Shown in pieces: positions 1,450 through 43,658 of a DNA stretch of 64,000 bases. Positions within the stretch are counted from its first letter, which is position 1; each line of letters opens with the position of its first letter. Source of the DNA: Bacteriovoracia bacterium (lineage in GTDB: Bacteria; Bdellovibrionota; Bacteriovoracia; Bacteriovoracales; Bacteriovoracaceae); assembly GCA_030431635.1 (NCBI GenBank), contig JAUIIL010000005.1, positions 62,001-126,000 of the forward strand, given 5' to 3'. The position numbers and the translations under genes are program-made. The notes beneath the pieces are model-generated. The model had not been told where the DNA came from, made no database searches, and worked only from the letters and a program-made list of their open reading frames with translations.

Positions 1450-2065
1450 AAAAAAAGCCCGGATATTTATCCGGGCCAGTTTTTCTGTTTTTGATGTTCT
1501 GCCTTACGTTCCTCTAGAGAGTATTCACCCTTTAGATTTTGTTTCAAGCTCAATAATCCTTGCGGATTACTTTACTCAAAAACAGACCTCTTAACCTTTA
1601 AAAAGCACTTGGCTTTTTTGAGATGTACCCGTTTTTCAACTTCCCTATCTCAGGTCAAGACGCCAAAAAGCTTTTACCCTCAACTCTTGCAAGTTTCACC
1701 TTGCTTGACTCTCGTTCGAAGCTAGCTTTCACTTTACTTCTGCTCTCTGACCTTACGTAAATGGCGAACATTTACGCGTTTGAAACTAGTTTTTCCCTTG
1801 CGGGCTGAAGTGTACCAGTTTTGCAACTTCCCTACTTCATTCTAATTCCACCTAAAGCTTTTATCCCAAGACAAAATCGCATTTCACCGCTTTTTTGTTC
1901 TCGTTAAGATTTGAACCCAGTGAATTCAAATCAGCTTCAGTCATTTGGTAGATACCTACCATGAGAGCCTGTCCTCTTTCTCGTTACCTCGAATTTGTCC
2001 CTACTCTCACTTTTGCTTTTTTCAAAACTTGTTTTGCCAAAAGCTCAACTTCAGTTGCCTAAAGT
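1450..2065 (-). ncRNA. candidate large structured RNA with tandem domains
   Basis: This stretch has no credible ORF, but it has a well-spaced promoter at its right end and an intrinsic terminator at its left, giving a predicted transcript of about 615 nt read leftwards. It contains two related domains, 1905-1807 and 1716-1620. In each, AACGAG is followed by a hairpin with a GTGAAA-containing loop, then AAAAGCTTT, then exactly 15 nt, then a 32-nt hairpin (1838-1807 and 1651-1620). The two hairpins share AGGGAAGTTG, AAAAC and GGTAC. They are capped by GNRA loops (GCAA, GAAA). Their outer stems differ by two compensatory pair changes (A-U to G-C and G-C to A-U). Other perfect hairpins include GATTTGAA/TTCAAATC, CGTAAATG/CATTTACG, TAATCC-GCAA-GGATTA and CCC-GCAA-GGG. 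I do not recognise RNase P, tmRNA, 6S, SRP or GEMM signatures. Function unknown. Confidence 0.7.
1457..1476 (-). terminator. intrinsic terminator of the candidate RNA
   Basis: An 8-bp perfect stem, GCCCGGAT/ATCCGGGC, with a 4-nt loop. On the minus strand it is followed by a run of T residues (TTTTTTTTGCC). An interrupted T-tract lies on the other side too, so it could also stop rightward transcription. It marks the 3' end of the 1450-2065 transcript and separates it from the gene starting at 1355. Confidence 0.9.
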
Positions 2066-2071
2066 GATACA

Positions 2072-2100
2072 TTTATAGAACTGACTTGTTTTATTGTAAA
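2072..2100 (-). promoter_or_regulatory. sigma-70-type promoter for the candidate RNA
   Basis: On the minus strand TTTACA (2100-2095) is followed after exactly 17 nt by TATAAA (2077-2072). The expected start is near A2065. It lies just beyond the hemW stop, and no Shine-Dalgarno/ATG pair follows, which fits a non-coding transcript. Confidence 0.75.
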
Positions 2101-2131: not shown

Positions 2132-3232
2132 TTAGATGATTTTTTGACTAAAAATTTCATCGAAAAGTCCGTCTAGGACGATATAACCTTTTGCGGTTAG
2201 TCTTAACTGGCCATGAGAAATTTCAGCAACACCTCGACTTACCCAAGTTTGAAAAAACTCTTGAGACTCAGAGGAAAAATGCTCTAAAGCAATCCCTGAA
2301 GATGTTCTTAAAGACAAATACATTGCCTCTAGCTTCATCTCTTCTTTGCCTAAAATTTCTATTTGAAAATCCTCTTTTTGAGTTTGCCATTTATACCTTA
2401 AAGCTTTCTCTGGTGAAAGAGAAAGAAATCCTGTCGATGAAGGACCGATGGCCCCAAAAGAGCGCCCTTGCCAATAGACATAATTATTTCTTGAATGAAA
2501 GTTTTCAAGAGAGAAGTTAGAAACTTCATAATGATTAAACCCATGAGAAGTTAAAAAATCAGAAACCTTTAAATACTCATCATGTGAATAGTCTTCGCTA
2601 GGAAGTTTTTGATAGTGAAGATAGTGTTTAGGGACAGTCAAAACATAAAGACTGATATGCTTAGGATTAAACTCTAAAAGTCTCTCTAGTTCTTTAACAA
2701 TATCTCTTTTTTTCTCTTGAGAGTAAGGAAGACTTAATAAAAAATCACAAGAAAAATTCTCATGATGATTTGCTAAAATTTCGAGCGATCTTAAAGAATC
2801 CTCTAAGTCATGGGCCCTATCGCTTATAGACAGAAAATAGGGGTCGAGAGATTGGAGTCCTACCGAAAAGCGATTAACTCCTATATTTTTCCAAAGTCTA
2901 TACTCGTTTTCATTCCAAGTTCCAGGATCGATTTCAAGTGTGAACTCATAGCTCTTATCAAAAGAGAGTTCGCTAAAAATAAATTTTTCTAAAAACTTAA
3001 CACCTTCCTCTGACCATAAAGATGGCGTTCCCCCGCCCATATAAAAAGTTTTTAAAGGTGACCATTTAAATGAGTTTTCTTTCATGAGCTCTGAATGCTT
3101 TCTCCATGAAGTCAGATAAAAATCATTCAGGGACTGAAAATCTCTACCTTTTAGTTCTTTTTTGAAAAAGTCACAATAGTTACAAAGATGTTTGCAATAA
3201 GGAAAATGCCAATAAAGAGAAGTTAAATTCAT
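2132..3232 (-). CDS. hemW: radical SAM protein HemW-like (heme chaperone)
   Basis: A 366-residue cytoplasmic radical SAM protein of the HemN/HemW family. The [4Fe-4S] site is C13-x3-C17-x2-C20 in HFPYCKHLCNYCDFF, followed by the SAM-binding GGGTPS and the family segment NRFSVGLQSL. It lacks the N-terminal extension of true oxygen-independent coproporphyrinogen oxidase (HemN), so HemW, a heme-binding and heme-transferring chaperone, is the better call. The C-terminal part is the winged-helix-like HemW tail. It is divergent from the M16 peptidase gene with 74 nt between the starts. The promoter of the candidate RNA lies just past its stop. Confidence 0.88.
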   Translation of the reverse strand: MNLTSLYWHFPYCKHLCNYCDFFKKELKGRDFQSLNDFYLTSWRKHSELMKENSFKWSPLKTFYMGGGTPSLWSEEGVKFLEKFIFSELSFDKSYEFTLEIDPGTWNENEYRLWKNIGVNRFSVGLQSLDPYFLSISDRAHDLEDSLRSLEILANHHENFSCDFLLSLPYSQEKKRDIVKELERLLEFNPKHISLYVLTVPKHYLHYQKLPSEDYSHDEYLKVSDFLTSHGFNHYEVSNFSLENFHSRNNYVYWQGRSFGAIGPSSTGFLSLSPEKALRYKWQTQKEDFQIEILGKEEMKLEAMYLSLRTSSGIALEHFSSESQEFFQTWVSRGVAEISHGQLRLTAKGYIVLDGLFDEIFSQKII

Positions 3233-42000: not shown

Positions 42001-43156
42001 CTCCTGGACGAAGTCTTTCGAAGATTTTAGTTAACGCTTCATCGGTTGAATTTGTTTTATCAAGAAGAAGCGTGTTTCTAATTTGATCACCAAAGTTAAC
42101 ATTATCAATGTAGAGAACCTTTAATGTTTTAATCCCAGAGTTAACAAGATCAAAAACATTTTGCTCCGTTAATGCTTCATTAGCACCAATGATTATCTCA
42201 CCAGTTTCTTCATCATAAATATCTTCAGCAACAACTTTTCCTGCTACCTCATCAATTGTGGCCGGAAGTTTTTTAAGACCAGATTCGTTAAGTTTTTTAA
42301 CAGCAAGTTTCGTAATTTTTTTGCCTTTCTTAACAACTATCCCGCCTTTCTTATCTAAAATATCCTCATCTGCTCTTGATCCGATAAGAAGAGAGAAATC
42401 TAATTCTCTTTCATATTTATCTTTTCCTAGATGAAGGATTTCTTTTTCATAAAAAATATCAAGAAGTTCTTGAACAGAGTAACCCATAGCTTTCAAGATA
42501 ACTGAAGCATGAAGTTTTCTCTTTCTATCGATTCGAGCATAAAGAATGTTTTTATGGTCAAATTCAAAATCTAACCAAGAACCTCTGTGTGGAATAATAC
42601 GAGCTGAATAAAGTAATTTTCCACTTGAATGCTTTTTCCCGCTATCATGTTCAAAAATAATACCAGGCGATCTGTGTAGCTGAGAAACAATAACTCTCTC
42701 AGTACCGTTGTAGATAAAAGAACCCGTCTCTGTCATGAGAGGTATATTACCTAGGTAAATTTCTTGCTCTTTAATAGAAGAAACTGTTTTTTGCTCGTTT
42801 TCATTCGCATCTTCTTCTTCGTTTTGCTCATAGAAAACAAGTCTTACTGTTACCTTAAGAGGTGACTCATAAGAAAGTCCTCTTTCACGACATTCTTTTT
42901 CAGAGTATTTGGGCTCTTCTAACGAATAGCTGACAAACTCTAAAGAAACTGTCTTGTTAAAATCATAAATAGGAAATACAGAGTGAAATACTGACTGCAA
43001 ACCAACCATTTTTCTTCTTGCTGGAGGAACATCTCTTTGGAGAAATTCTTCATAAGAACTAACTTGAAGTCTCATCAAGCTAGGAGGCTGCATAGCATAC
43101 TCACACTTTTTAAAGGACCTTCGGTACCACTCATTCGGGTTAAAAACTTCTGTCAT
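39029..43156 (-). CDS. rpoB: DNA-directed RNA polymerase subunit beta
   Basis: 1375 residues. The rifampicin pocket reads [20 protein letters not shown] then [20 protein letters not shown]; the Asp, His and Ser at the main resistance positions are the wild-type residues. The C-terminus has [20 protein letters not shown], the beta anchor region. Transcribed after rplL through a long hairpin at 43,224 that may attenuate polymerase synthesis relative to L10-L12. Confidence 0.98.
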
Positions 43157-43223
43157 TACATGACTCCTAGATAAACACTCTAAAAATATATGTTGTTCTT
43201 TCTTACTTCTTTACAAAAAACAA

Positions 43224-43258
43224 AATAATGGAAACATGCTAAGCACATTTCCATTATT
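43224..43258 (-). terminator. attenuator-like hairpin between rplL and rpoB
   Basis: An 11-bp stem, AATAATGGAAA/TTTCCATTATT, extended inside by TGC/GCA, and followed on the minus strand by TTGTTTTTTG. It lies in the 130-nt rplL-rpoB gap. E. coli has a partial terminator at the same place, which makes ribosomal proteins more abundant than polymerase. The stem is AT-rich, so partial readthrough is likely. Confidence 0.75.
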
Positions 43259-43286
43259 CATATTCTAAACAACTTGAGCAAAATTA

Positions 43287-43658
43287 TTATTTAAGCTCAA
43301 CTTTAGCACCAGCAGCTTCAAGCTTTTTCTTAAGCTCTTCTGCCTCTGCCTTTTCAACGCCGTCTTTAATTGGCTTTGGAGCACCTTCAACAAGTTCTTT
43401 TGCTTCTTTAAGCCCAAGACCAGTGATTGCTCTTACTTCTTTAATAACATTGATCTTCTTATCACCAGCATCAGCAAGAACTACCGTAAATTCAGTTTTC
43501 TCTTCTGCAGCTGCAGCACCAGCTCCAGCAGCACCAGCAACAGCAACAGGAGCTGCTGATACACCAAATTTTTCTTCTAGTTCTTTTACTAGGTTCGCAA
43601 GGTCAAGAACTGTCATGTTAGAAATGTGTTCCATTAATTGTTCATTTGAAATACTCAT
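43287..43658 (-). CDS. rplL: 50S ribosomal protein L7/L12
   Basis: 123 residues. It has an N-terminal dimerisation helix, an Ala/Gly-rich hinge ([17 protein letters not shown]), and a C-terminal domain with [20 protein letters not shown]-like [18 protein letters not shown]. The stalk recruits the GTPases IF2, EF-Tu and EF-G. It is 25 nt after rplJ. Confidence 0.97.

Follow-up and report, generated by a model that had tools for sequence, protein, structure and literature searches.

Large structured RNAs in bacteria

Few large structured RNAs are known from bacteria, and their functions are mostly unsolved. ROOL, GOLLD and OLE form multimers that consist of RNA only, and ROOL is typically encoded by phages and prophages, where it lies near tRNAs (PMC12286853). 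In the phylum studied here, Bdellovibrio bacteriovorus possesses merRNA, a free RNA of 445 nt with one c-di-GMP-I aptamer (PMC3627812). The candidate described in this work shares with ROOL, GOLLD and OLE the large size (about 600 nt and more), the noncoding nature and an elaborate fold with many junctions and hairpins. It differs from them in that it matches no Rfam model and that one chain bears two copies of a 160-nt unit; moreover, it sits between hemW and grpE and has no phage homologue, in contrast to the phage- and tRNA-associated ROOL. The likeness to these three RNAs that an earlier note on this DNA had drawn does not extend beyond size and complexity. Like merRNA, the candidate would be a structured, independent RNA from an intergenic region of the same phylum, several hundred nt in length, whereas neither the candidate RNA nor its host genome contains a c-di-GMP-I aptamer.

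A candidate RNA gene between hemW and grpE

The window, i. e. the complete stretch of 64,000 nt that was analysed, is part of contig C14 of a 3.3-Mb genome (19 contigs, 100% complete), which is the sole member of its genus among the genomes searched. The gene order is hemW (2132-3232), the RNA stretch (2065 to 1450 on the minus strand), a same-strand gene for a protein of 591 aa, and then grpE, dnaK and dnaJ. The proposed RNA and its boundaries are as follows:

1450-2065, minus strand: proposed noncoding RNA of about 615 nt (folding z -9.7, strand asymmetry, five GNRA-capped stems, no ORF)
2072-2100, minus strand: promoter-like pair TTTACA (2100-2095)-N17-TATAAA (2077-2072), 10/12 to consensus
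1450-1477, minus strand: intrinsic terminator with a stem of 9 bp (1477-1469/1464-1456) and a T run behind it (sequence and fold)

From the position of the putative promoter, transcription is expected to start near 2065. All six frames of the stretch are broken, and the longest complete ORFs (45 and 40 aa) both lie on the opposite strand. A protein gene was therefore rejected, and the original description of a stretch of about 615 nt from promoter to terminator that has no credible coding frame holds. An ORF of 27 codons, MTEADLNSLGSNLNENKKAVKCDFVLG (1944-1861, minus strand), spans a part of the RNA that we call unit A (see below); it has no counterpart in unit B and is probably a chance occurrence.

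Folding of the minus strand

The minimum free energy of the RNA is -192.4 kcal/mol as compared to -143.4 kcal/mol (sd 5.1) for shuffled sequences, corresponding to a z score of -9.7. If the terminator is left out, the minus strand still reaches a z score of -6.4, as compared to -3.0 for the plus strand. When folding was corrected for composition by regression over 200 stretches of the window, the RNA ranked second; the only stretch that folds better (43020-43600, minus strand) covers rplL, which has alanine-rich repeats, together with the hairpin that precedes rpoB, and the tRNA cluster came third, as a positive control should. Finally, GNRA loops cap five stems of at least three Watson-Crick pairs. 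Only 0.68 would be expected, none of 2000 shuffles reached five, and the opposite strand has no such stem.

An internal duplication with compensatory changes

The topology of the RNA was read from the maximum-expected-accuracy fold, in which most helices of the two central units have probabilities above 0.9. The parts, in the order of transcription, are:

1947-2065, minus strand: 5' domain with four hairpins (2065-2048 with a GCAA loop, 2044-2015, 2010-1961 and 1960-1947); helix probabilities of the main stems 0.9-1.0
1781-1940, minus strand: unit A, two consecutive three-way junctions with the closing stems 1940-1933/1859-1852 and 1850-1842/1789-1781 (predicted fold, shuffle control)
1867-1905, minus strand: AACGAG and GUGAAA-loop hairpin of unit A (predicted fold, shuffle control)
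1806-1839, minus strand: core hairpin of unit A with a 6-bp stem, an AGGGAA/GGUAC internal loop and a GUU-GCAA-AAC cap (sequence and fold)
1755-1777, minus strand: linker hairpin located between unit A and unit B, with 9 bp and a UUCGC loop (predicted fold)
1589-1751, minus strand: unit B, topology as in unit A, closing stems 1751-1742/1671-1662 and 1660-1652/1597-1589 (fold, match to the unit A model)
1679-1716, minus strand: AACGAG and GUGAAA-loop hairpin of unit B (predicted fold, shuffle control)
1619-1652, minus strand: core hairpin of unit B with the AGGGAA/GGUAC loop, a GAAA cap and two stem pairs compensated with respect to unit A (sequence, fold and alignment)
1484-1586, minus strand: 3' domain, a third three-way junction with an 11-bp closing stem (1586-1576/1494-1484) and a GCAA-capped hairpin (1571-1552) (fold; local z -3.0)

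In the predicted fold, the first junction of unit A holds the hairpin 1932-1908, the AACGAG...GUGAAA hairpin (1903-1867) and a single-stranded GGAUAAA, and the second closing stem holds the core hairpin and CCC-GCAA-GGG. Correspondingly, the hairpins 1740-1718 and 1714-1679 are found in the first junction of unit B, and 1651-1620 and 1618-1600 in the second. At the sequence level, the repeat covers 61 nt with 72% identity (1866-1806 versus 1679-1619), and AACGAG occurs at 1905-1900 and 1716-1711, at a spacing of 189 nt. Both core hairpins keep AGGGAAGUUG-N-AAAAC-N-GGUAC, and two of their stem pairs differ by compensation between the copies, from A-U to G-C and from G-C to A-U. Thus, the constant inner part and the two covarying outer pairs that had been noticed in the letters are confirmed; the tandem arrangement of two domains of one design also stands, with the correction that the unit measures about 160 nt rather than about 98 nt.

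Two controls carry the most weight for the correspondence of the units. First, the letters common to both copies were fixed and the remainder was shuffled: both closing stems (at least 7 bp) were regained in 0/2000 and 1/2000 trials, and none of the shuffled units reached the real energy. Second, a covariance model for which unit A was the only input (model R2) recovers unit B with 40 bits (E 5e-8) and no further site in the 64 kb. In the alignment of the units, which was taken from the covariance model since MAFFT misaligned them beyond the 61-nt block, 97.8% of the cells pair, and 17 pairs are changed on both sides as compared to 1-4 if the partners are slid. Since this alignment was fitted to the structure and has just two members, we give greater weight to the independent controls. 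The assignment of one helix is ambiguous, as the fold pairs 1671-1662 with 1751-1742 and the model aligns it with the strand 1731-1724. The covariation comes from the two internal copies only, since the collections searched yielded no homologue. Taken together, the centre of the RNA is an internal duplication of a double three-way-junction unit of about 160 nt. The z score, the strand asymmetry, the recovery of the fold in the controls and the compensated pairs between the copies all support the selection on structure that had been proposed, and the minus strand is under structural constraint.

The duplication allows inference of the structure from a single genome and reveals which parts were held fixed. 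The helices of the units have changed by compensation, and the GUGAAA loop, the GGRUAAA strand and the GNRA-capped hairpin with AGGGAA/GGUAC have stayed the same. Since a fixed internal loop and a GNRA cap sit on a stem that varies by compensation, the core hairpin looks like a docking or binding element, and its presence in two copies suggests two equivalent sites. A bulged-G (loop E-like) module under the GUU-GNRA-AAC cap is one possible arrangement of the AGGGAA and GGUAC strands. We propose that the fixed elements would form two equivalent sites for one protein, ligand or RNA receptor, and that the RNA may work as a two-site scaffold, in effect as a pseudo-dimer on one chain. A more far-reaching idea, which we consider rather unlikely, is a new class of large bacterial RNAs with a core that originated by duplication of this unit. 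A single chain would then form a pseudo-symmetric assembly, comparable to an OLE dimer within one molecule, and this assembly would bind its partner in two copies or build larger particles. If expressed, the RNA would represent a new class, known to date from a single lineage, and could be used to examine whether pseudo-symmetric architecture arises in RNAs by duplication, as it does in proteins.

Stand-alone RNA or leader of the downstream gene

We favour, with moderate confidence, the interpretation that the locus encodes a highly structured RNA of about 615 nt that acts on its own and has two equivalent sites, rather than the leader of a gene. As a structured RNA gene, the candidate is convincing, it is probably of a new class, its internal duplication is unusual, and it is seen in one genome; that it is transcribed, independent and functional is what we infer. 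The main rival is a long cis-regulatory leader, in which two tandem aptamer-like units and the terminator would control the 591-aa orphan gene. This gene lies on the same strand, its start codon is located about 100 nt past the terminator, and the interval contains only weak promoter-like sites (8/12). Of the earlier claim of a large independent RNA, size and lack of a coding role stand, and independence is only likely. Tandem aptamers occur in riboswitch leaders, and units A and B are similar structured domains that precede a terminator in tandem, as in tandem riboswitches such as the glycine riboswitch. Moreover, the 5' end of the RNA, UUUAGGCAA (2063-2055), is perfectly complementary to nine nt directly past the terminator, UUGCCUAAA (1451-1443, minus strand). 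Such pairing would close the whole RNA upon read-through, or the two sequences would serve as short terminal inverted repeats. On the other hand, the units are larger and more complex than those of tandem riboswitches, no known aptamer family matches the RNA, and unit B lies about 110 nt from the terminator, with another structured domain in between. In the one thermodynamic fold from which the 3' arm of the terminator was omitted, the 5' arm was unpaired, and neither an antiterminator nor an expression platform is visible in it. We regard a leader as possible but doubtful; it keeps its weight since the 591-aa gene lacks a strong promoter.

Comparison with known RNA families

A search with Rfam 15 gave no match at the gathering score or at E values up to 10. 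By sequence and structure, the candidate is thus not recognisable as ROOL, GOLLD, OLE, RNase P, tmRNA, 6S RNA or a known riboswitch, in agreement with the initial impression that it matches none of the first three. A divergent housekeeping RNA such as RNase P RNA or tmRNA, or a missed protein gene, would fit the size and the degree of structure and nothing else. The RNase P RNA of the genome is encoded elsewhere (226.6 bits), ARAGORN finds no tmRNA at the locus, and together with the lack of an Rfam match and the broken frames this largely refutes such an identity.

The precedent of merRNA in the same phylum raises the idea of a ligand sponge, i. e. a free RNA of high abundance with riboswitch-like domains in which a small molecule is stored, and a pair of aptamers would be in keeping with two similar domains whose internal loops are fixed. 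Since neither the RNA nor the host genome contains a c-di-GMP-I aptamer, an identity with merRNA was rejected, and with no aptamer family matching the RNA we judge storage of a ligand to be very unlikely. The c-di-GMP-I aptamer was not detected in four other members of the family either (five genomes of the family in total); three genomes of g71, another genus of the phylum, have one each.

Two further ideas were discarded. (i) The 14 nt of AGCGGTGAAATGCG (1891-1878, minus strand) equal the 690 loop of E. coli 16S rRNA, and 13 nt of the RNA equal positions 2552-2564 of E. coli 23S rRNA. Mimicry of rRNA was rejected: the 23S match is not beyond that of shuffled sequences, its 13 nt pair differently in the RNA, and the rRNA of two relatives gives no excess of matches. 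(ii) A CsrA sponge was dropped upon visual inspection, as the RNA is not rich in GGA and the AGGGAA of the repeat sits in an internal loop.

Search for relatives

With blastn against 59 genomes, we obtained only short chance or coding matches and no homologue. One of these matches, between the 5' end of the RNA (2063-2005 of the window) and L003:1501-1562, extends over 62 nt with 79% identity (single-genome E value 1.3e-5); on the L003 side it is the end of an epimerase-like protein gene of genome G035 and was rejected as chance or a relic. Among 369 genomes of the phylum, the core motif (up to three mismatches), a covariance model of the core (R1) and one of the whole unit (R3) gave convincing matches only in the host genome; the R3 search scored eight candidates per genome, and the R1 search is the more complete one. 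Six phylum genomes gave weak R1 matches; with per-genome E values of 0.01-0.05 and 369 genomes searched, chance would yield as many. One of them (L050) is inside an ORF, and no tandem copy was seen for any. In the GTDB genomes and IMG/VR, the core motif with free stem letters was matched by two archaeal contigs and one viral contig, in all cases without the outer stem. A second pattern in IMG/VR and blastn against phages and plasmids gave zero matches. So far, the RNA appears to be limited to one genome or lineage among the collections searched.

The hemW-grpE interval in related genomes

The 591-aa protein (1-1355 of the window, minus strand; L062:9580-11355), encoded between the RNA and grpE, has a signal-like N terminus and a hydrophobic C terminus. 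It matches no Pfam or PHROG family, and no homologue was found in 129 genomes of the family, in phages or in plasmids. In most relatives examined, a gene of the size of grpE follows within about 50-135 nt after hemW, and the two that were checked are grpE. Since the RNA and the protein are both orphans and grpE closely follows hemW in relatives, the two look like a lineage-specific insertion. It is conceivable that the RNA is merely a non-functional remnant of this insertion with an old tandem duplication. Decay would not be expected to leave both copies with compensated pairs and preserved loops, and an intact promoter-like site, a terminator and extreme folding would be unexpected as well; we therefore consider a remnant highly improbable and prefer a functional stand-alone RNA.

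In one relative (genome G034), the sequence after hemW (L021:2578-2845) is a well-folded noncoding stretch (z -3.3 to -4.4) that is unrelated in sequence to the RNA of the window, matches no Rfam family and has no relative in the 129 family genomes. The site after hemW varies further among the relatives: it is occupied by an ADP-ribosyltransferase-like gene in one (L019:2675-3370), by an ABC1-kinase-like gene in another (L025:2653-4098), and by grpE in others.
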